A DNA stretch of 44,740 nt from a virus, in the IMG/VR virus record IMGVR_UViG_3300042520_001052, positions 1 to 44,740 of that record; one strand, written 5' to 3'. The first letter of the stretch is position 1. Every line of letters starts with the position of its first letter. Below are positions 12,724 through 44,740 of this stretch, in pieces. A program made the translations under genes and the position numbers. The notes under the pieces are model-generated. The model ran no database searches and had not been told where the DNA came from. It saw only the letters and a list, made by a program, of their open reading frames with translations.

Positions 12724-14223
12724 TTAAAATTCACAAGTTTCCTCCAATTCCCATACTTCATTGCTATCACCAGAAGCCATCATGTTATGAATGGTAATCT
12801 TATGACTAAATTCAGTAAGAACTTTAGGGATATAGGTAATACAGTCTAAGATACCATCCACATTGTTGGTCTTAAGAGCATTGAAATCTATTATCTGCCT
12901 ACTAGCTAATGGCCAAGCATCTGGATGTATTAGTATCTCTCCTGTAGTCAGGGATTTAAACATATCCAGGATTCTGCTATTCTTACTGCGGCTGCCGGAA
13001 TATATAGGTTCTACTGCTAGTTCATATAAGCCTAGTCTTACTCTATACTTGTCCATCCAGAACTTAAGTGAGTATTGGTAAGCATTAGCCTCAATACAGA
13101 TAAGGCTGCATCCCCATTGCATAGCAGCCCTCAATGACCTAGTAATAGTTTCTTCAGGAGAATAGCGGCCCTCATCAAGAACTCGCACAACTGGCTTACC
13201 AGCAATGATGCAATTGACACTAATTGTTACACTATCGCTATTAGTCTTATCATTAGATGGGTCAATGATAATGAAGTTGCCAGCACTTATCTCATCCTCT
13301 CCGAAAGGGTAGGTAGGAATCTTACTGATATCAATGTTATTATTAGCATTAGCTGTCTCATCATTAAGCACTTCAGCATAGAAGATTTCAGGATGGCCTG
13401 AATTAGCATCATTACGGTATTCATCTAATAGCTGCTTAAGAGGTTTCAAGTCCTCCCACAAGCTGGTTCCGTCAGCAAGGATGCCACCAACAATGAACTT
13501 AATCCACTCAGTATTATGCTTGAGATTCCTTAATATACTGTGAGGAGTGGGATACATATTAGCTAAAAAGATATAGAGACAGCCTTTGTGGCTAGCAGCT
13601 TTCATAGCAGTTCCTAACATCCATTGTTGTATTGAGCTGCTTACCAATTCACTATCAGCATCCTCTCTTGTCTGTATGTCATCGAATACCATAACATCAG
13701 GACGTTGATGCTTAATGTTAAGACCACGAACAGAGCCACCTTGACCGATAGCAGTAAGTACAATATTCCTTCCCTTAAAACCAAAGCGTTTCTGCTCTTG
13801 TGTATCCTTCTCAATACCAACACGCCAGTCACCAAAAAGGGCAGTAATATTATTCTCATCAAGCATATCAGCAATGTCACTGATAATATTCTGAGCATGA
13901 GTGGCGGTGGAGCAGATGACAGCAATATGAGTCTTATTAGTAAAGATGATCATCCATAGGATTGCTAGTTTTACTAAAGAGGTCTTAGCAAAACCACGAG
14001 GAAAACCTACTGCTATCTTACTAAAGTCCCTATGACGCTGACTATAGTCTTGCAATAGCTGCCATATAATATGATAGGTTTCAGGATAGGAGTATTCGGT
14101 AACAAGGGGCAAAGCCAGCATAGCAAAGAAGTCAAGGTCTTGTCTGGCTAGTTCATATGCTTGCTGGTGGTCAAGAGCTGTCTGACCTACCTCTTGGTAA
14201 AGGGATGGGAGTTGGCTGCTCAT
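12724..14223 (-). CDS. terL: Large terminase subunit (packaging ATPase/nuclease)
   Basis: A 499-aa protein. Walker A is GFPRGFAKTS (residues 73-82) and Walker B is VMVFDD (177-182), with STATHA (105-110) as a candidate coupling motif. The C-terminal nuclease domain has acidic residues D321 (IIIDPSND), E378 (CIEAN) and D460 (GILDCITY), arranged as in the RNase H-like nuclease of terminases. It cuts concatemeric DNA and drives translocation into procapsids. It precedes the portal and follows two small overlapping genes and TerS. The start at 14223 is preferred, although the ribosome site is weak. The family of packaging strategy (headful or cohesive) cannot be read from this alone. Confidence 0.93.
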   Translation of the reverse strand: MSSQLPSLYQEVGQTALDHQQAYELARQDLDFFAMLALPLVTEYSYPETYHIIWQLLQDYSQRHRDFSKIAVGFPRGFAKTSLVKLAILWMIIFTNKTHIAVICSTATHAQNIISDIADMLDENNITALFGDWRVGIEKDTQEQKRFGFKGRNIVLTAIGQGGSVRGLNIKHQRPDVMVFDDIQTREDADSELVSSSIQQWMLGTAMKAASHKGCLYIFLANMYPTPHSILRNLKHNTEWIKFIVGGILADGTSLWEDLKPLKQLLDEYRNDANSGHPEIFYAEVLNDETANANNNIDISKIPTYPFGEDEISAGNFIIIDPSNDKTNSDSVTISVNCIIAGKPVVRVLDEGRYSPEETITRSLRAAMQWGCSLICIEANAYQYSLKFWMDKYRVRLGLYELAVEPIYSGSRSKNSRILDMFKSLTTGEILIHPDAWPLASRQIIDFNALKTNNVDGILDCITYIPKVLTEFSHKITIHNMMASGDSNEVWELEETCEF

Positions 14224-14406: not shown

Positions 14407-14494
14407 ATTGCTCTCTCATAGCCATTAGCATAGCCAAAGCAGCACTATTCATAGCTTTCTGAGCAGGGTGGCCAGTAGATTTGCGGCTATTCAT
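14396..14494 (-). CDS. Possible mini-gene, 32 aa, between terS and the 56-aa gene
   Basis: ATG at 14494 overlaps the stop of terS, and the TGA at 14396 overlaps the start of the 56-aa gene, so the three frames form a chain of short overlaps. The product starts MNSRKSTGHPAQKAMNS and is followed by a Met/Ala-rich helix. With only 32 codons this is weak evidence, but without it 80 bases of this compact operon would be untranslated. Confidence 0.35.
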   Translation of the reverse strand: MNSRKSTGHPAQKAMNSAALAMLMAMREQYAA

Positions 14495-15074
14495 AATAGG
14501 CAATCTTACTTGATCTGTGACTTGAGTGTGTGAGTTTCTGTGTTGGGTCATTTGAGTGTTCATTACTTATTACCTCCAATTGAGAGGATTGCATAGTTAG
14601 TAGGTTCTTATCACCAGCTTGCACTATTTGGTTATTAATATCTTTAACATATCTTTGCATTAGCTGGGTTGGTAACATTAATTGTACCACAGTCTGATTA
14701 ACAGTTGTAATATTGTTATCACCGTTAGCGCCCCTTCTTTTGAGGCCATTAATAGCTACCAAGTTCCTGACTTTCTCAGTAGTAGTTTTAAATGCTAGCG
14801 GGTTGTTGTCAATATCACTTTCAATCTTGCCTAGTAACTTATCTTCAATAGCATCGTAACGTTTATCTCTTGCTGTTGCTTCTGTCAGATTAGCCAGCTT
14901 GTATTCTTGCACAGCCGCTTTGAAAGCATCATCAGATAGTAGTTGACTGATATAGCTGGGATCACATCCTATGGCTGAGGCTACTCTATGGGCTTCAATA
15001 CCTTGACCGAGCAATTTGCAAATTCGGCCTTGGATACCTTCAAATTCATGGGTTTGGGTGACTGGCTGGGTCAT
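14487..15074 (-). CDS. terS: Small terminase subunit
   Basis: A 195-aa protein with an N-terminal helix-turn-helix at about residues 30-50 (VASAIGCDPSYISQLL), a helical central oligomerisation region and a flexible Gln/Ser/His-rich C-terminus. This layout is that of small terminases, which recognise the packaging site and regulate TerL. It is the first gene of the minus-strand block. The ribosome site AAGGAG lies just before the ATG at 15074, and a candidate leftward promoter lies at 15119-15146. Confidence 0.75.
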   Translation of the reverse strand: MTQPVTQTHEFEGIQGRICKLLGQGIEAHRVASAIGCDPSYISQLLSDDAFKAAVQEYKLANLTEATARDKRYDAIEDKLLGKIESDIDNNPLAFKTTTEKVRNLVAINGLKRRGANGDNNITTVNQTVVQLMLPTQLMQRYVKDINNQIVQAGDKNLLTMQSSQLEVISNEHSNDPTQKLTHSSHRSSKIAYYE

Positions 15075-15955: not shown

Positions 15956-15976
15956 AACTGATGTTTAGGCGGGAAA

Positions 15977-16033
15977 ATGGCTTTTTGTCCAAAGTGGCTA
16001 CATGGCTCAAATGGCTTTATGGCTCAAATGGCT
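15977..16033 (+). repeat. Left iteron array (RTGGCT, 8/9-bp phase)
   Basis: Six copies of RTGGCT in 57 bases. The last four form two perfect tandem 17-bp units (16002-16018 and 16019-16035). Confidence 0.75.
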
Positions 16034-16310
16034 TTCCCCCCCATTTTCCCCCCATTTCGGTTTCCCCTATTACCACCAGCTATTACCACCGCCTACTACT
16101 AATAGCTCCCTCAGTAGAGCTGAGACTGATACTATATCTTTATTAAGATACTATTTTTAAGTAGGAGGGTATATATAGGTGTACGATTCCTCATAATTGA
16201 GGGATATTCTCAGTATAAGGTTTACCTGTTAGTGTGCTAATAGTGAGAGGATGAGATGACAGGGCTAATGGTAATAGGAATGAGGCAACCAAGGCCCAAA
16301 ATGAGGCTAT

Positions 16311-16343
16311 AAGCCACTTAAGCCACAATGCCATTTAAGCCAC
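16311..16343 (-). repeat. Right iteron array, inverted (AAGCCAC)
   Basis: AAGCCAC begins at 16311, 16320 and 16337, and ATGCCAT near 16328 fills the gap as a degenerate copy. Read on the minus strand these are GTGGCTT, the same core as the left array. Confidence 0.7.
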
Positions 16344-16384
16344 TTTTGCGCAAATCTATTATTTTTTAGCCCAATAATTGAGCA

Positions 16385-16413
16385 TTGACAATATGAGGTT
16401 TTTATGATATATG
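16385..16413 (+). promoter_or_regulatory. Candidate sigma70 promoter
   Basis: A perfect TTGACA (16385-16390), then 17 bases, then TATATG (16408-16413). It would serve the early genes after the iteron region. The small frame at 16404 begins inside it, so either the frame or the promoter may not be used. Confidence 0.55.
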
Positions 16414-16499
16414 ATAGAATTCAGGATTTGAGCTGGCTTGAACTGGTAGCAATAGCTGCCATTCATGCAGTATTTATTGATGTAATTTTGCACTTATGA
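16404..16499 (+). CDS. Possible hydrophobic micropeptide, 31 aa
   Basis: ATG at 16404 has GAGG five bases upstream, and TGA is at 16497. The second half is a hydrophobic helix (ELVAIAAIHAVFIDVILHL) with the length of a membrane segment. It overlaps the candidate -10 box of the promoter at 16385, so an mRNA from that promoter would lack its start. Weakly supported. Confidence 0.3.
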   Translation: MIYDRIQDLSWLELVAIAAIHAVFIDVILHL

Positions 16500-17023: not shown

Positions 17024-18031
17024 ATGAGACTATTCTGTACAATATCAGGCTTAGAGTCTGAATTACCACAATTCGCCAGTCCAGCTATTAGGCAAGAGTG
17101 GCAGCATCCTATATTTAGCCTGTCTAGGGCTGAGCTATTAAGGATATATAAGGCAGCTTGGCAGCGGCAACGACTAAGCAAGTCAGAAAGCAGGCTCTTA
17201 GCTCTTGCACTTTTCAATTCCAGCCAGCTAGTAACATGGGTAGCGGCAGCATCTCACCTGCCATCCAGCCTAATCAATCAAGAACCTCAAATTGCTCAAT
17301 CCCTGCCGCTATTAGCGGAAGTGATTGAATTCAGCCTATCTTGTCCTTCATGGCCGCAATCCCAATTAGCACATTTTCCGAGCATAATAATTGATTCTAG
17401 TAATAACCATGACTTATCCATTATGGTTACAAGCTGCGAGTTATGGCTTGCCGCTATTGCTGATTACCATGCAGGCTATTATCGCCAATATCAAGAGAAG
17501 CGTGACGCTGAGAAAGCTAACTTTTTATCCCACCTATCAGCATTTTCCAGCAGAAAACCATCCCGCTATATTAAAGCACTAAGCCGATATGTCATTGATG
17601 CGATACCCTCAAGTCACTGGCAAGATAGGCAAGAACGTGAGCACATGAGATATATAATAGAGTATTCAGGCTTAGTTCATACCTTAGAAAGCAAGCCAAT
17701 AGCGCCAATTACCAGCGCCCAGTGTAATCAATTGCTGGATACCATTACAGACTGTTTATCGCTTGATAATCTGCATGTCTGGAAAGCATACCAAGCTGTC
17801 AAGCTAATGCTGGAATCTGGTGGACATAATGCCTATGGTGCAATGATGCTAGAGAACCAAGCAGAACAAGATAAGGAGCAGGAACTAAGGCAGGCAGCAA
17901 TGGCTCAATTAGGAGAAAGGCCACAAGGTTTTATAGCTGCAATGGCTTATGATGCTGAGGTGTTGCGCATTATGGCAACTATGGCGGCAACGGCAGTATA
18001 TCACCTGCCACAAAATGACGAGGCTCAATAA
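17024..18031 (+). CDS. Hypothetical early protein, 335 aa
   Basis: ATG 17024 after TTGAGGCTA. The protein is helical, rich in Ser, Ala, Gln and Trp, with no signal peptide, membrane segment or nucleotide-binding motif. It contains a segment SRYVIDAIPSSHWQDRQERE and ends in an Ala/Met-rich helix (AAMAYDAEVLRIMATMAATA). The stop is one base from the start of the next gene. It could be a replication-associated or host-takeover protein; nothing in the sequence decides it. Confidence 0.65.
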   Translation: MRLFCTISGLESELPQFASPAIRQEWQHPIFSLSRAELLRIYKAAWQRQRLSKSESRLLALALFNSSQLVTWVAAASHLPSSLINQEPQIAQSLPLLAEVIEFSLSCPSWPQSQLAHFPSIIIDSSNNHDLSIMVTSCELWLAAIADYHAGYYRQYQEKRDAEKANFLSHLSAFSSRKPSRYIKALSRYVIDAIPSSHWQDRQEREHMRYIIEYSGLVHTLESKPIAPITSAQCNQLLDTITDCLSLDNLHVWKAYQAVKLMLESGGHNAYGAMMLENQAEQDKEQELRQAAMAQLGERPQGFIAAMAYDAEVLRIMATMAATAVYHLPQNDEAQ

Positions 18032-18626: not shown

Positions 18627-18656
18627 CCTACCACCTACAATTTGAGGCTAACTATT

Positions 18657-20390
18657 ATGGCTCTTGACCTAAGCAAATATAAACAGAAACCAACTAATCA
18701 GACTATTGGCGGATTAGTAATTCCTACCCGCAAAGCGGCTACACAAATGCTGCAACCTGAGCAACCAGAACCATTAAAGTTATCATTACCACAAAACCAG
18801 AACCACCAACCAATACCCCAAATCATAACAGCTTGGAACGCTGATGGCTCTAGTAAGGATATTATACTCAATGCTAAACAATACGAGTTTGCAAGCCTGC
18901 TAGCTAATGGGCTTTCTTGCGTTCTTATTGGTGCTGCCGGTACTGGTAAGACAACATGCACCCAAGCCGGAATCGCTGCTCTTATGCAAACTGGCTCAGT
19001 GCTGCATATTCAGGATAGTAGCCACAAGTATATAAAATCAGGCGCGCCTGGCTTGCTGGTAACAAGCTATACTAGGCGAGCCGTTCAGAACATAAAGCGC
19101 CAAATGCCACTTGATATTGCTGCCAATACCATTACCATTCATAAATCCCTAGAATATAGCCCAGTGTTCTATGAGGTGCTAGATGAGGAAACTGGTAAGA
19201 TGAGAAACAAAAGAGTATTTGAACCGAAAAGGAATCTATTAAATCCACTCTGTAACAATATCCAGACAGTTATCATTGATGAGGCATCAATGCTCAGTGT
19301 TGAGCTATTCGAGGAACTCAGACAAGCGTTATCAACTAATTGTCAGTTTGTATTCATTGGTGATCTTAATCAGCTCCCGCCAGTTTTCGGACATGCTATA
19401 TTAGGCTATAAACTGTTAGAGCTGCCAGTAATAGAACTTACCGAAGTTTACCGACAAGCTTTAGAAAGCCCCATTATCAGGCTTGCCCATAGAATCCTAT
19501 CCGGTAAACCGATTATGCAATTTGACATGGCTTCATTTTGTGAACCTGGAAAACTGCAAATCATACCCTATCCAAAGCAGCTAGATTCAGAACATGCCAT
19601 GCTTGAAACTTGCAAAATGTTTTATGCTGGTTATGATTCAGGCTCTTATAATCCTGATACAGATATAATCTTATGCCCACAAGTAAATGATAAAACTGAC
19701 AAAAAATTTAATTGCACTCTTATTAATAAATACATCGGTAATCATATAGCCAGAAAAGAAGGCAGGATTACCCATGAAATTATTGCATCATTCCATAAGC
19801 TATATTATTCAGTAGGTGATAAGGTCATATATGATAAACAGGATGCAACAATAGTTGATATAAGGCTTAATGAATCCTATCTAGGCTCAGAATTCCAAGC
19901 CCCAAGCCAGCATTTAGATTACTTCGGACATAATGAACATGAAGCTTTCAAGCTTATTCAAAATACTGACATAGATATAGACAAACTTATTGAGGATGCA
20001 ACCTATAGCATTGAGGAAGGCGCAAAACTGGCAGCAAGCCATATTGTAACCATTGAACTTACCGATTCACATAATGATGAATTCATAAAGCTAGAGCTAA
20101 AAACAGTAGGAGAATTACTGGCTCTTGATCTTGCATATGCAATGACTATTCACAAGTCACAAGGCAGCGAGTGGCGTAAAGTATTCTTGCTATTCCATAA
20201 AAGCCACAATAACATGCTATGCCGTGAGCTGTTATATACAGCTGTAACTCGTGCGCGTGAAACTTTAGTAATGGTATGCGAAAAGGATAGCTTAATAAAG
20301 GGAATTACTAAGCAAAAAATTAAAGGTAATACACTAGCAGAGAAGGCAGAATACTTTAAAGGTAAGATAGCAAGTAATACCAGCAGCTAA
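18657..20390 (+). CDS. SF1 helicase, RecD/Dda-like
   Basis: A 577-aa protein starting at ATG 18657 after TTGAGGCTA; an earlier TTG at 18642 lies inside that leader and is rejected. Motifs in order: Walker A GAAGTGKTT (92-100), motif II VIIDEASM (205-212), motif III GDLNQLPPV (235-243), motif IV TEVYRQ (262-267), motif V region HKSQGSEW (499-506) and motif VI TAVTRAR (528-534). This is the SF1B (RecD2/Dda) set, which unwinds DNA 5' to 3'. The 230-residue region between IV and V is longer than the minimal core and probably holds an SH3-like or specificity domain. Likely the replicative or recombination helicase, since no DnaB-type helicase is seen. Confidence 0.88.
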   Translation: MALDLSKYKQKPTNQTIGGLVIPTRKAATQMLQPEQPEPLKLSLPQNQNHQPIPQIITAWNADGSSKDIILNAKQYEFASLLANGLSCVLIGAAGTGKTTCTQAGIAALMQTGSVLHIQDSSHKYIKSGAPGLLVTSYTRRAVQNIKRQMPLDIAANTITIHKSLEYSPVFYEVLDEETGKMRNKRVFEPKRNLLNPLCNNIQTVIIDEASMLSVELFEELRQALSTNCQFVFIGDLNQLPPVFGHAILGYKLLELPVIELTEVYRQALESPIIRLAHRILSGKPIMQFDMASFCEPGKLQIIPYPKQLDSEHAMLETCKMFYAGYDSGSYNPDTDIILCPQVNDKTDKKFNCTLINKYIGNHIARKEGRITHEIIASFHKLYYSVGDKVIYDKQDATIVDIRLNESYLGSEFQAPSQHLDYFGHNEHEAFKLIQNTDIDIDKLIEDATYSIEEGAKLAASHIVTIELTDSHNDEFIKLELKTVGELLALDLAYAMTIHKSQGSEWRKVFLLFHKSHNNMLCRELLYTAVTRARETLVMVCEKDSLIKGITKQKIKGNTLAEKAEYFKGKIASNTSS

Positions 20391-20508: not shown

Positions 20509-21213
20509 ATGTCTAATCAAGAAACTAAAGCCCCTGTAACAAAATTCCATTTCAAAGAAATCAAAAAGGATGGCGTTACAATCGAACCAAAACGCGCCAG
20601 CTTTGAAACAACCATTGTTCCCGAAGTCGGCGCACAAAACATTGTTGATATTATTTTCAGTGATACTGAAAGCGACGAAAGAAAAGAAAAGCTATTGAAT
20701 TACTTGGCTCGTTTGCACAATGATCAAGTATATAAAGCTGCCCAGCTACAAATCGGTGCAAAATTAGCATCTTTTGGCGATAACTTGGAAGCGAAAATTG
20801 CCTACGTTCTTACTGATGCCGACTTGGATACCAGCAAACTAGACTTGTGGACTCTGGCCTATACTGAACCTGCCCAACGTGGCGGCGGTAAACAATTTAG
20901 CGATGAATTAGTAGCTGATACCATTAAATCATTTGTTGATTTTGGCGTGGCTAACTTCAAAAAGGCTGACGGTACACCAGTATCCCGTGAAGGTTTGGTT
21001 AAATCAGCAGATGAAATATTTAAAAACCGCTTTAAAAATACCAAGTCAGACAAACGTACTATTCAACTATTTAAAGACCGTATTACTTTATGGTTTGCTG
21101 GAATCAATCCTGAATTGCAAACAGCATATGCCGCTTTCGCTGAAAACTTGATAGGTAAAGCTGATAATTATTTGAATCCAAGCAATGAATCAGTAATCGG
21201 CAAATTTGAATAA
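20509..21213 (+). CDS. Highly expressed unknown protein, 234 aa, own transcription unit
   Basis: A soluble protein with no signal or membrane segment. The N-terminal 40 residues are charged and beta-like (FHFKEIKKDG); the remainder is helical with a Lys-rich region near 170-190 (FKNRFKNTKSDKRT). Codon use is unlike its neighbours (more AAA, GGC, TTG and GCC), resembling the capsid gene, which suggests very high expression. A consensus promoter and operator lie upstream, and a strong terminator downstream, so it is monocistronic. Candidates include an abundant DNA-binding, takeover or anti-defence protein; the sequence alone does not decide. Confidence 0.75.
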   Translation: MSNQETKAPVTKFHFKEIKKDGVTIEPKRASFETTIVPEVGAQNIVDIIFSDTESDERKEKLLNYLARLHNDQVYKAAQLQIGAKLASFGDNLEAKIAYVLTDADLDTSKLDLWTLAYTEPAQRGGGKQFSDELVADTIKSFVDFGVANFKKADGTPVSREGLVKSADEIFKNRFKNTKSDKRTIQLFKDRITLWFAGINPELQTAYAAFAENLIGKADNYLNPSNESVIGKFE

Positions 21214-21790: not shown

Positions 21791-22231
21791 ATGACTTTCG
21801 TAATTCCTAATAAGAAACCAGCAACTCAGCAGCCCATAGTACAAACTGCCAGCTTAGTGGTTAAACACCTAGAGCAAGCTGTGGCTATTCAGCAAGAGCA
21901 GCAAGATCAACCAGTAATACCAACAACAACTACTTCGCAAGCTGTGGTTAATAGCCCTGCTAATTATGCTAATCATCTTGATCTAGCTATCGAGCAGCAA
22001 CTAGCAGCTCTTATCAGTAAGATTGAATCATCAATACCAGATGTAAGGCATGAGATGATAACAATTCACAAAGCATTAGCTAAAGATCCTGCACAAGTTA
22101 CTATCCTCAGTACTGAACAACGTGCTGCTATCTTTGCTGGTTACAGTAAGCTGTCAGGTATTGAGCTAGTAGCTAAGGCAGCAGCTAAGAAAGGTAGCAA
22201 GACTCCTATTAGTATTGATATGTTTGAATAG
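21791..22231 (+). CDS. Hypothetical protein, 146 aa
   Basis: The frame opens at 21761, but ATG 21791 has GGAG upstream and begins a clean N-terminus (MTFVIPNKKPATQQP). Residues 10-65 are Gln/Thr/Val-rich and probably disordered; residues 70-146 are helical with a basic segment (KAAAKKGSKTPISIDMFE). A C-terminal acidic-aromatic tip (DMFE) can be a protein-interaction tail. No family was recognised. Confidence 0.6.
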   Translation: MTFVIPNKKPATQQPIVQTASLVVKHLEQAVAIQQEQQDQPVIPTTTTSQAVVNSPANYANHLDLAIEQQLAALISKIESSIPDVRHEMITIHKALAKDPAQVTILSTEQRAAIFAGYSKLSGIELVAKAAAKKGSKTPISIDMFE

Positions 22232-22246
22232 CCCCCCCCCACTATT

Positions 22247-22732
22247 ATGAATATATTCTATCTTGACCCTAACCCAGTACTAGCAGCTCAATGTCATTGT
22301 GATAAGCACGTAGTTAAGATGATATTAGAATCAGCTCAGCTATTATGTACTGCTATTAATACTGTTGCCAGTGATAAGATTACTCCCTATAAGAGTACCC
22401 ATGTTAGCCATCCTTGTACTATATGGGCAGGCGCTAGTGTTGGTAACTGGCTGTGGCTATATGATTTAATGATAAGCTTAGAACTAGAGTGGAACTATCG
22501 CTGGCAGCATGATAAGAGTCATCAATCTGTTAGTGACTTATGCAAAGCTGATGTTTTTGATAAAGCAATAACACTGTTACCAGCAGGCCCAATGACAGAG
22601 CCGCCAAAATGTATGCCAAGTTTGTATCACATACCTAATGACACAGTAGCAAGCTATCGCTATTACTACAAAGTAAGTAAGCATAACCTGTTACATTATA
22701 CCAGACGACCCAAACCAGAATGGTTATCATAA
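22247..22732 (+). CDS. Conserved phage protein, possibly pyrimidine-dimer glycosylase-like
   Basis: The pattern MNIFYLDPNP, then CHCDKHVVKMILESAQLL, then KSTHVSHPCTIWA, PPKCMP and YYYKVSKHNL is that of a family common in phages. It has an N-terminal helical core with CDKHVVK and a C-terminal basic region ending in TRRPKPEW. Some members are labelled as related to T4 endonuclease V (pyrimidine-dimer DNA glycosylase), but this is not proved. The ribosome site is poor, and a run of nine C (22232-22240) lies just before the start. If enzymatic, it would repair or process DNA in the replication module. Confidence 0.7.
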   Translation: MNIFYLDPNPVLAAQCHCDKHVVKMILESAQLLCTAINTVASDKITPYKSTHVSHPCTIWAGASVGNWLWLYDLMISLELEWNYRWQHDKSHQSVSDLCKADVFDKAITLLPAGPMTEPPKCMPSLYHIPNDTVASYRYYYKVSKHNLLHYTRRPKPEWLS

Positions 22733-22733
22733 C

Positions 22734-23096
22734 ATGAATACTGAGATGCCAACACTTAAACAGCATATTGCTTTAATACTAGCACTGTTAAGAGTAAGTC
22801 CTAATAGAGAATTCTATCAGCTATATGGATTTGCTAGGCAGCTAGTTAGCAGGAGTGATATGCACAAGGTTACTAATAATGATATTGATTACTTCATTAA
22901 TGACGACCATTACTGGTTACATGATGGAATGAGAGCTTACTATTATGACCGCACCATCAATACAGGCATAGGCCCAAAGACAATGCGCTGGTTTGTAGAG
23001 AATCACCTAATACCATTAATTGAATTGCACTTAACAATAGAAAGACATGGCATCAGAACACAGGTAACAATAGAGTCAGTGGAGAATTTATTATGA
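22734..23096 (+). CDS. Hypothetical protein, 120 aa
   Basis: Starts one base after the preceding stop. Helical with aromatic-rich centre (DDHYWLHDGMRAYYYDR) and a basic-to-neutral C-terminus. The N-terminal helix (LKQHIALILALLRVSPN) is amphipathic. No family was recognised. Probably cotranslated with its neighbours. Confidence 0.6.
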   Translation: MNTEMPTLKQHIALILALLRVSPNREFYQLYGFARQLVSRSDMHKVTNNDIDYFINDDHYWLHDGMRAYYYDRTINTGIGPKTMRWFVENHLIPLIELHLTIERHGIRTQVTIESVENLL

Positions 23097-31144: not shown

Positions 31145-31651
31145 ATGTATGAAAAATACAAAGTACTATCTATAGTGGACTGGAATAACCTATTTTTATA
31201 CGAGCCAGACTGTGGCAACATGTATTATAGGTATTTCAATGGTGCTGAATTCATAAAAGGCACACTAATTACCAGTGTGCACGATGGTTACATTACTGCT
31301 AAAACCAGAGGTAGCTATTTTAGAGCACACATTATAGCTGTAATACTAATGACAGGTAAGTATCCAGATGAATCTTTTGAGGTTGACCATGTTAATAGGG
31401 ATAGAAAAGATAATCGTTGGTCAAATCTAAGATTAGCTACAAGAACACAAAATCAAGCTAATAAATCTTTGCAGAAAAATAATACACACGGAAGTAAAAA
31501 CGTATCTTTTGATAAAGGCTATTGGCGTGTATTAGTAACATGTAAAGGTAAGAGATACGATGGTGGTAGATTTAGTAACAAAGAGGATGCAATAAATAAA
31601 GCTACTGAGCTAAGAAATAAAGTGTTCGGGGAGTTCGCATGTCATGCTTGA
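31145..31651 (+). CDS. HNH homing endonuclease with AP2-like C-terminal domain (second copy)
   Basis: A 168-aa protein with the same architecture as the copy at 23337. HNH motif: VDHVNRDRKDNR with D81, H82, N84, N90, and N94 in NLRLATRTQN. Residues 112-160 form the AP2-like part (GSKNVSFDKGYWRVLVT). The two copies are clearly related but diverged. It lies between the polymerase and the DUF3987-type ATPase and overlaps the latter by eight bases, as the first copy does with its downstream neighbour. It brings GGGGAG as ribosome site for that gene. Confidence 0.88.
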   Translation: MYEKYKVLSIVDWNNLFLYEPDCGNMYYRYFNGAEFIKGTLITSVHDGYITAKTRGSYFRAHIIAVILMTGKYPDESFEVDHVNRDRKDNRWSNLRLATRTQNQANKSLQKNNTHGSKNVSFDKGYWRVLVTCKGKRYDGGRFSNKEDAINKATELRNKVFGEFACHA

Positions 31652-42332: not shown

Positions 42333-44261
42333 TTATCTTCTAGTAGCATCTTCTGGGTTACGACTCTCTACCAGCTTGCTAGCAAACCAGTCAGTAGCCC
42401 CCGGGGCAATACCATGCAGAGCGCTACCTATAGGGCCAGACCTTGTTATCTGGTAAATAAGAGCTGTCTTAACATCAGTAGGATTAGTCATATCAAGCTC
42501 GCGCTCACCAATACCTCTAATCATATAGCTATTCATCATAGGAATACCAAAGCGGCTATAACCTTGTTTAGCATTGTTATAAGTAATAGCCTCTGAATAT
42601 AGTCCTGATAACTCCTTAGCTAGCTCATTCATATTAACATCTTTAGAGGTCAGAGCTTTTTCAGCAAGTGAGCTTATCTCCTCAAAGCTGGTATCAAGAT
42701 TACCCTCTGCTATCTTAGGAGCTAAATACTTACTGAAGAACTTGCCGCCTTTCTTAGCAGTAGCAAAATTAGCAAGCTCAGCAGGTTTAGGTAGTTTGGT
42801 CAAATCACTAGATTCAGGATTCATCATGGCTTCAGTGAAGTGCTTTACCACTCTGGAGTCAGCTTCTACTTTAAGCTCTTTCATGCTAATATTAGCATCC
42901 TCTTTCTTAATAGCTTGCATCTCATAGTCAATTCTATCTTGAATAGCTTTAGCAGTTCTAGCCTGGGATGGTTCCAATTTAGGGTTAAGAACCTGCCTAT
43001 TAATAGCTGCCTCAGTTGGAGTAAATCCAAAAGGAATAACTGGATGCTTTTCTGGTGCTACTTCATACTGCTTCTTAACTGATGCCATAGAATCATTAAC
43101 TGCTTTCCAAGCAATGCTAAGAGAATCTTGTGGATTCTTAGCACGTTTCTGACCATCAATAATAACCTTTTCAGCGTCATAGATATTATCAGGGATATAG
43201 ATAAGGTTATCAGCACCAATAGATGCAACTACTTGCTTATAGCGAGCAACCAAATCTTTCTTACCTTCTTGAACTGCAAGAGCCTTATCAAGTTCAAATT
43301 GCTTCTTAGTAGTGGTAAGTTCATCTCTTAGCTTCTTAGCTTCATCCTTATTACCAGCCTTATCAGCTTTAGCAGCCCTATCTTCCAAATCAAGTATTAG
43401 CTTATTAGCATCTTGCTCTTGTTTAGCATCCCACTTGGTTTGGGCGAAATCCATGCTTTGCTGCTTGAAGTCGTTAGCAATAGAGCGTTGCTCTTGAGCT
43501 GCATTGAACTGAGCTACATCAAGATTATAACGTTTCTCAGCCATAGCTTGATTAGCTTGGAAGTGCCGCTCTGCTTGAGCCATACTTTGATGCTGAAGTA
43601 TTACTGAGTCTTGATGCGCAGCTGCTGATATCATAGCTTGATTGCCAGACATGACAGCTTTAAGTGCATCCACATTAGCGTTAATACCTTTAAGCTTCAG
43701 CTCCTCAGCAGCTTGCTTATTAGCAGCACTTGCAAGTTCCAGCTTCTTAGCAGTAATATCCTCATTAACAGTTTCAGATACTATCTTACTGGTCATTACT
43801 CCTTGCTGAATCTGCTGATTGATATCATTGATTTCTTGGGTTGCCAGTAATGAAGTCTGGGTAGCAGCATTAGCTTTCTCTGCTACTGAATCCTTTTGGA
43901 ACTGAGCAAGTAGCCACTCAAGAGGATTATCTAAGAATCCTACTTGGCTAAGTTGCTCATACTCTTGTGTAGCTGCAAGGGCTTCATCAGTAGCTTGTGC
44001 CTTAGTGGCAGAGAGCTTCTCCATCCTGTAATTAGCAGCATTAGGGTCAGCACCAAGAGCTTTAGCAAGAACCTTACCAACATTGATAGCAGCATTATCA
44101 TCCTTAAGTTTCTGAGCTTCAACCTCAGTTTTAAGTTGTGCTGATGTGGAAGCGCTGTCACTAATAGCTTTAGTAGCTTCCTGAGTCTGCATAGCATATT
44201 GCCCAAATTGCTGATTCATACCAGCTTGGGCTTCCATCAAAGCATCAATTAAACTTGCCAT
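42333..44261 (-). CDS. Coiled-coil internal virion protein, gp15-like position
   Basis: A 642-aa protein overlapping the end of the 367-aa gene by 13 bases. The first 350 residues are strongly helical with heptad-like Ala/Glu/Lys/Gln patterns; one run is rich in Asp/Lys (DRAAKADKAGNKDEAKK). The C-terminal part is more globular, with KKGGKFFSKYLAPKIAEG and RGIGERELDMTNPTDV. It stands second of three internal proteins, as T7 gp15 does, and could form the ejection channel. Assigned from size, order and helical content. Confidence 0.65.
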   Translation of the reverse strand: MASLIDALMEAQAGMNQQFGQYAMQTQEATKAISDSASTSAQLKTEVEAQKLKDDNAAINVGKVLAKALGADPNAANYRMEKLSATKAQATDEALAATQEYEQLSQVGFLDNPLEWLLAQFQKDSVAEKANAATQTSLLATQEINDINQQIQQGVMTSKIVSETVNEDITAKKLELASAANKQAAEELKLKGINANVDALKAVMSGNQAMISAAAHQDSVILQHQSMAQAERHFQANQAMAEKRYNLDVAQFNAAQEQRSIANDFKQQSMDFAQTKWDAKQEQDANKLILDLEDRAAKADKAGNKDEAKKLRDELTTTKKQFELDKALAVQEGKKDLVARYKQVVASIGADNLIYIPDNIYDAEKVIIDGQKRAKNPQDSLSIAWKAVNDSMASVKKQYEVAPEKHPVIPFGFTPTEAAINRQVLNPKLEPSQARTAKAIQDRIDYEMQAIKKEDANISMKELKVEADSRVVKHFTEAMMNPESSDLTKLPKPAELANFATAKKGGKFFSKYLAPKIAEGNLDTSFEEISSLAEKALTSKDVNMNELAKELSGLYSEAITYNNAKQGYSRFGIPMMNSYMIRGIGERELDMTNPTDVKTALIYQITRSGPIGSALHGIAPGATDWFASKLVESRNPEDATRR

Positions 44262-44740
44262 TGAGCACCTACCTTTGCTACCTTTTTAGCTGCCACTATT
44301 ACTTGATGTTTCATATAAGCTGACCATACTGCCACTACTGGGCGCATTACTTGAATCATAAGCTTACTAGCCAGAGTGTGACCATGTAACCAGTTAGCAA
44401 CAAAAGGTATAGCCCAAGAATGGTACCACGCAAACAGCTCAGGATTAAACTCTTTAATAATAGCACCGTATATCGAATCAGCCAGATAAGTATCATCATC
44501 CATATATCCTAATTCGTGCATACGAGTGCAGATAACAGTGCCCATACTAGAGCCAGAATCTCCAGAGCCTCCTGAGCTGCCACCAAAGAGGCCACCAATA
44601 CCTGATAGCAGAGAGTTACTAGCAACATCTTGCAGCACACCTAGGAACTCAGAACCTCCACCTGTTCTTTGCTCTCCTGACACTGGGTCAAAGGTAGCTG
44701 ACTTAAGACCTTCAGCCATACTACCAGCAGCAGACTCGAA
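44249..44740 (-). CDS. Internal virion protein, gp14-like position (C-terminal part; begins at the left end of the window)
   Basis: The 3' part of the gene that starts at 806; positions 44547-44740 repeat bases 1-194. Residues 267-367 of the joined protein contain ICTRMHELGYMDDDTYLADS and PELFAWYHSWAIP, a helical module that I associate with small internal proteins of podoviruses, with CTRMHELG as the most typical segment, followed by a Lys/Val-rich end. The stop TGA at 44249 is read through by the overlapping start of the next gene. An ATG at 44719 is not a gene start but an internal Met (SMAEGLK). Confidence 0.75.
   Translation of the reverse strand, partial: FESAAGSMAEGLKSATFDPVSGEQRTGGGSEFLGVLQDVASNSLLSGIGGLFGGSSGGSGDSGSSMGTVICTRMHELGYMDDDTYLADSIYGAIIKEFNPELFAWYHSWAIPFVANWLHGHTLASKLMIQVMRPVVAVWSAYMKHQVIVAAKKVAKVGAQWQV
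44547..44740. repeat. Right copy of the 194-bp terminal overlap
   Basis: Matches bases 1-194 except for G at 44613 (T at 67). It lies in one reading frame, so the difference changes Tyr (left) to Ser (right) in the internal virion protein. This supports a circular or permuted molecule with a sequence variant in the population, or an assembly error in one copy. Confidence 0.95.

Follow-up and report, generated by a model that had tools for sequence, protein, structure and literature searches.

What is the role of two arrays of short repeats that face each other in a phage genome, and is that role to start DNA replication? We analyzed the whole of virus record IMGVR_UViG_3300042520_001052 (the window; 44,740 bases), whose termini (1-194 and 44547-44740) carry the same 194 bases apart from one mismatch, at position 67; these matching ends imply that the genome is circularly complete at 44,546 bases. 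The early genes occupy 15.5-37.3 kb of the + strand, and both ends of the window carry late genes on the − strand; the arrays sit at the border of these two blocks, beside the replication genes. From its sequence features, the region (15966-16425) is probably a replication origin joined to the promoter of the early (replication) operon.

The polymerase, the helicase, and the gene order place the phage among kin of the Fredfastierviridae (PaMx41, PaP2, and 119X), with Polaromonas phage Tiera, Aeromonas phage P5, and EBPR podovirus 3 as other relatives. It has its gene order and the pairing of a PolA-type polymerase with a Dda-like helicase in common with PaMx41 and PaP2. Protein identity to the Fredfastierviridae, Tiera, P5, and EBPR podovirus 3 is roughly 28-38%, given which the phage would be at most a distant relative of that family, and no nucleotide-level relatives were found among named phages. 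The sequence-only reading had taken the virus for a podovirus, and a podovirus-type genome related to the Fredfastierviridae fits that assignment. An HNH endonuclease gene (31145-31651) lies between the DNA polymerase and primase genes, a position typical of homing endonuclease insertion. The features of the locus and its neighborhood are as follows.

14487-15074: small terminase gene, ~0.9 kb from the arrays
15968..15976, + strand: left outer motif GGCGGGAAA, directly adjoining the first repeat
15977..16033, + strand: left array, six RTGGCT copies and one degenerate slot in 8/9/17 phase
16034..16066, no strand assigned: C-rich tract leading from the left array to the core
16066..16080, + strand: left arm of the inner inverted repeat, CCTATTACCACCAGC, pairing with 16264-16278 at 87%
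16123..16182, no strand assigned: 60-mer of lowest stability in the region, a candidate unwinding element
16153..16187, + strand: central core element ATTTTTAAGTAGGAGGGTATATATAGGTGTACGAT
16186..16205, + strand: palindrome ATTCCTC-ATAATT-GAGGGAT, within an 88% conserved stretch
16264..16278, − strand: right arm of the inner inverted repeat, GCTAATGGTAATAGG
16312..16343, − strand: right array, three RTGGCT copies and a degenerate ATGGCA (16329)
16344..16354, − strand: right outer motif, TTTGCGCAAAA on the − strand (TTTACGGGAAA in the relative)
16385..16425, + strand: TTGACA promoter-like stretch directed toward the early operon, with 93% identity to the relative
17024..18031, + strand: family-wide 335-aa protein with an N-terminal C-x2-[ST]G ... 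HP motif
18642..20390, + strand: Dda/RecD2-like helicase (phrog_325, 7.7e-65), the synteny anchor
20509..21213, + strand: 234-aa protein, remote paralogue of an array-side protein

Do the arrays stand out from chance? The coordinates confirm what had been read from the letters of the window, that six RTGGCT copies on the left oppose three plus a degenerate one in reverse on the right, with spacings of 8, 9, and 17. Copies on the + strand start at 15977, 15994, 16002, 16011, 16019, and 16028 (gaps of 17, 8, 9, 8, and 9), with TTGTCC in the vacant slot near 15986, while those on the − strand start at 16312, 16321, and 16338, which together with ATGGCA at 16329 give gaps of 9, 8, and 9. Tandem short repeats in regular phase, as expected of an iteron origin, are therefore present. 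Six copies fall within a one-strand span of 57 bp, and the maximum in 200 first-order Markov genomes was two. With a relaxed detector, the array pair scores 16—the top tile of the genome—as against maxima of 10 and 13 in simulated 6-kb stretches (300 Markov-1 and 300 Markov-3, respectively). The mirrored pair is the strongest of its kind in the genome, far beyond chance.

A mechanical 61-aa open reading frame (15961-16146) runs across the left array, but indels put it out of frame in the relative and it is not conserved as coding sequence; we therefore took the region as noncoding, in line with the earlier claim, and rejected a coding explanation for the left array. Rfam returned only a sub-threshold, meaningless match. 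Between the arrays, the C tracts and TATTACCACC repeats that had been described are there (two TATTACCACC units, 13 bp apart), but the AT-rich DNA is limited to the middle (16125-16178, 24% GC), and the interval as a whole has 42% GC vs. 41% for the genome. By nearest-neighbor stability, the 60-mer at 16123 is the fifth least stable genome-wide. The central core element contains a run, TATATATA, that forms the center of the interval; it resembles the center element of relatives (ATTTTTAAGTGGGGGTTAAATATATACCG and similar), although the window copy fails the strict pattern used in the counts below. The inner inverted repeat and a pair of outer arms (16003-16047/16298-16342) share a common center at ~16172.

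Is the spacing conserved where the flanks are not? Three IMG/VR contigs (L010, L024, and L026), mutually identical at the locus, match the window at 98-99% identity across most of the genome, as against ~76-82% in an island at roughly 14.4-18.8 kb. This island takes in the origin region, the gene for the 335-aa protein, and the first part of the helicase gene, and it is possibly a recombinational swap of a module holding the origin and an initiator candidate. The two arrays persist inside it with their 8/9 phase, as do outer motif and core, so arrays and phase survive where flanks have diverged to ~76%; loss of the arrays in close relatives without effect, which the sequence-only reading had named as evidence against its proposal, was seen in none of the three contigs. 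The left array of the relative is built of ATGGCT with gaps of 8, 9, 8, and 17, its degenerate slots carrying on in phase. Its coordinates are 6028-6092 in L010/L034, with the same 8/9 phase and a different copy order, and the right-array counterpart (6371-6409 in L034) likewise keeps phase. Repeat variants come in a different order in window and relative, so the copies have been reshuffled without loss of phase.

Conservation is uneven across the locus. The left outer motif is identical in window and relative (11/11 over 15966-15976), although the sequence on either side is not conserved. Identity is 87-88% in the core stretches and 93% from TTGACA to TATATG (16385..16425), the best conserved stretch of its length, while the C tract and gaps reach 38-51%; the C-rich tract itself is 51% identical to that of the closest relative, and other members have C-rich tracts at the equivalent place. 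The 7-bp arms of the palindrome are perfect in the relative and carry one mismatch (G-T) in the window. A simple promoter scan of the window did not list the 16385..16425 stretch, whose TTGACA lies ~40 bp beyond the right array. Elsewhere in the genome, ~500 bases (22230-22749) are missing from the 98% identical relatives L002 and L010, and an open reading frame there (22247-22732) gives a weak match to pyrimidine-dimer glycosylase.

How far does the mirrored layout extend beyond these close relatives? With the helicase beside the site as an anchor, 80 more loci were gathered, and the 6 kb upstream of the helicase were tested against the 6 kb downstream and against shuffled sequence. Mirrored arrays were found by an exact-match detector in 27/65 upstream regions, 1/52 downstream regions, and 0/650 shuffles, and by a relaxed detector in 34/65, 0/52, and 1/260, respectively. 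About half of the relatives had no array by either detector. Mirrored pairs outnumbered same-direction pairs (27 vs. 11), and most of the latter had multiple-of-three spacing, like coding repeats. Five further relatives on GTDB contigs included two with mirrored arrays, while L117, L119, and L121 had none upstream, L117 giving a weak downstream match. The contig of L117 and L116 (NZUJ01000115.1, from a Ponticaulis bin) is 54.8 kb long and carries the helicase region twice, near its two ends; it is probably an over-assembled circular phage genome in a bacterial bin. In Polaromonas phage Tiera (L030), a 72-bp unit with GGGGAT repeats is tandemly duplicated at 43930-44075, in the matching noncoding region; since this does not fit the mirrored pattern cleanly, we rejected Tiera as a case.

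The repeat sequences themselves are unrelated across lineages (TGGCATTG, CAGTCTGG, TAGCACAA, GTTACATG, and CACAAGAG, among others), and left and right arrays are about 100-440 bp apart. PaMx41, for example, has CAAGGT units every 10 bp, arranged as mirror images to either side of the position at which its record begins. Among 220 short gaps, 126 were of 8 bp, 42 of 10 bp, 36 of 9 bp, and 8 each of 7 and 11 bp. Because most relatives thus space their repeats at exactly 8 bp, the 17-bp (8+9) period, earlier put forward as the defining trait, is a local variant specific to this lineage; the family trait is the mirrored, short-period layout. An equal layout, with different repeats, at the same place in many relatives suggests that the site is probably where the phage begins to copy its DNA.

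The unstable center recurs across the family. In 26/33 loci the interval between the arrays falls in the least stable 5% of equal-length stretches of the locus (median 2%), a ranking softened by the generally lower stability of intergenic DNA; low-stability DNA adjacent to the repeats, another mark of iteron origins, is present. The central element takes the form ATTTT-A-(CCC or GGG)-A[AT]AT-CG, with 13 matches in 14.7 kb of intervals vs. 5 in 786 kb outside, a count not fully independent because the pattern was derived from part of these loci. It always lies on the helicase-facing (+) strand and, in all cases but one, at a relative position of 0.46-0.61 in the interval. By profile the element is matched in only part of the family; in the other members, the window among them, it is degenerate. 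In about 16/40 loci, TTGACN lies at most 40 bp before the right array; contact between promoter and array is thus shown in a large subset of relatives, not in this genome.

Our best reading, and one we think has the better part of the probability, is that of an origin served by its own phage initiator and coupled to the early promoter. The resemblance to an iteron origin noted earlier is strengthened by the retained arrays, phase, and core, the family-wide mirrored layout, and the meltable center, although no initiator was identified among the proteins scanned; the site would work like an iteron origin and is a candidate member of that class. A host DnaA-dependent origin was rejected, since no DnaA box (TTATNCACA, with at most one mismatch) was found between 13.9 and 18.4 kb, and the absence of host boxes implies a phage initiator. 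The GC-skew test suggested by the sequence-only reading was only loosely compatible with the site: the detrended GC-skew minimum of the window is at 13,880 (AT-skew minimum at 16,498), and across four genomes the GC-skew minimum is near, not at, the site in three (window, PaMx41, and P5) and elsewhere in Tiera. Because skew is confounded with the gene-strand switch, we did not count it as support for an origin.

How might such an origin fire? A phage-encoded protein would bind the short repeats cooperatively, forming two facing nucleoprotein filaments. Strain from the filaments, or contact between them, may then open the central DNA, whose instability and central position are observed. The Dda-like helicase, DUF3987-type primase, and PolA-type polymerase, whose genes all lie downstream of the arrays, would be loaded, and forks would depart both ways. 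Occupancy of the right array near the TTGACA promoter could let the binder limit its own operon, as in iteron plasmids.

Which early protein could be the initiator? The 335-aa protein has orthologues in 63/65 family genomes, nearly always between array and helicase; its model is all-helical (pLDDT 85.6), and it matched no PDB fold and no Pfam or PHROGs family. It is a possible candidate initiator or loader. In many relatives, a protein of ~225 aa ends near the left array (e.g., 6192-6857 in L104), and profile-profile comparison relates this array-side group to the group of 20509-21213 (probability 95.9%, E 6e-9). Many relatives have two such paralogues per genome, one abutting the left array and a second downstream of the helicase; in the window the array-side copy is absent and the downstream paralogue is the only one. 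A fold search found no PDB match for these paralogues. Pfam and PHROGs scans of the early proteins of the window and the small open reading frames of four relatives gave no known initiator and no winged-helix, HTH, ribbon-helix-helix, ParA, ParM, or TubZ protein, although distant homologues could escape such scans. In Mantel tests of co-variation with repeat sequence, four protein families all correlated via common ancestry and none stood out. The suggestion that initiator candidates lie among the early proteins thus yielded two conserved families lacking a known fold, neither of them singled out.

Could the arrays instead serve transcription alone? The main rival reading, which we consider unlikely, is that they are operators through which a regulator loops the DNA and represses or activates the early promoter. 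An array in contact with a promoter, together with easily melted DNA, is what a purely regulatory region could show as well; in favor are the TTGACN within 40 bp of the right array in about 16/40 relatives and, in this genome, the promoter stretch as the best conserved part. MetJ-type operators consist of 8-bp tandem sites, cooperatively bound and overlapping a promoter, and the 8-bp tandem sites here recall such arrays; they form one cluster, however, whereas this locus has both a mirrored distant cluster and a central core. A loop has no need of a conserved, central, polar core in its spacer, or for that spacer to hold the least stable DNA of the locus, and the left array, often larger than the right, is ~300 bp away.

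We think it quite improbable that the pair is a centromere-like partition site segregating an episomal phage. In plasmid R1 parC and pSM19035 parS, short tandem sites touch a promoter, and the likeness includes two clusters of such sites around or beside a promoter with a period of 7-11 bp. The same-family phage Shea persists as an episome (PMC13348215), which makes partition worth testing. Unlike parC and parS, the locus has a conserved meltable core, and neither a linked partition motor (ParA, ParM, or TubZ) nor a site-binding adaptor such as a ribbon-helix-helix protein was found by the Pfam and PHROGs scans of the early proteins. Searches among PLSDB plasmids gave no close family member, only generic RecD-like helicases, and family members were found in none of the GTDB isolate genomes, only on about six phage-sized or short metagenome-bin contigs.

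A packaging or genome-end site recognized by terminase is very unlikely. It is suggested by the small terminase gene nearby and by record openings: the records of PaP2, 119X, PaMx33/35/41/43/46, and Ph_15 all have position 1 at nearly the same spot between the arrays, give or take a few bases. That shared start may reflect a convention copied from record to record, or else a physical terminus or nick in the DNA. Against packaging, later records begin elsewhere and read across the site, terminal repeats are absent at the opening point, and Shea is reported to be terminally redundant. Least credible of all, a functionless repeat-rich spacer produced by slippage and kept by descent would predict the differing copy order of window and relative, but not the persistence of mirrored geometry and position while repeats are replaced family-wide, nor the copy identity maintained in arrays 300 bp apart.

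How does an origin of this form compare with those already described? Like theta-plasmid iteron origins and the phage lambda ori, it combines tandem sites of initiator type with an adjacent AT-rich segment of low stability, and it lies near replication genes; such origins often overlap the promoter of the replication operon. It differs from them in placing the AT segment between two facing arrays and in having a site period of 7-10 bp rather than about 17-22, no recognizable Rep or O protein, and a site sequence that turns over inside one phage family. Satellite phage P4 has two separate sets of short type I iterons, ori and crr, that act jointly. The two separate short-repeat sets are alike, whereas those of P4 are kilobases apart and bound by a primase-helicase initiator (alpha protein), and here the sets are mirrored and 100-440 bp apart. 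A mirrored, short-period, sequence-replacing architecture was not found in the literature we searched, which excluded most subscription journals, nor was a described origin for this phage family found in the searchable papers, and to our knowledge no such origin architecture is known.

Tentatively, and with rather less confidence than for an origin as such, we suggest a new origin architecture in which two mirrored initiator filaments of ~8-bp period squeeze a central unwinding element, with the geometry conserved and the sites replaced between lineages, and with an undescribed initiator family that may be the C-x2-[ST]G..HP protein, the ~225-aa pair, or another early protein. The element is small, well bounded, and family-wide, and its dozens of natural variants make origin, initiator, and spacing rules directly testable. 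If confirmed, the geometry of the arrays would be under selection, while the sequence of the sites would be free to change together with the protein that binds them.
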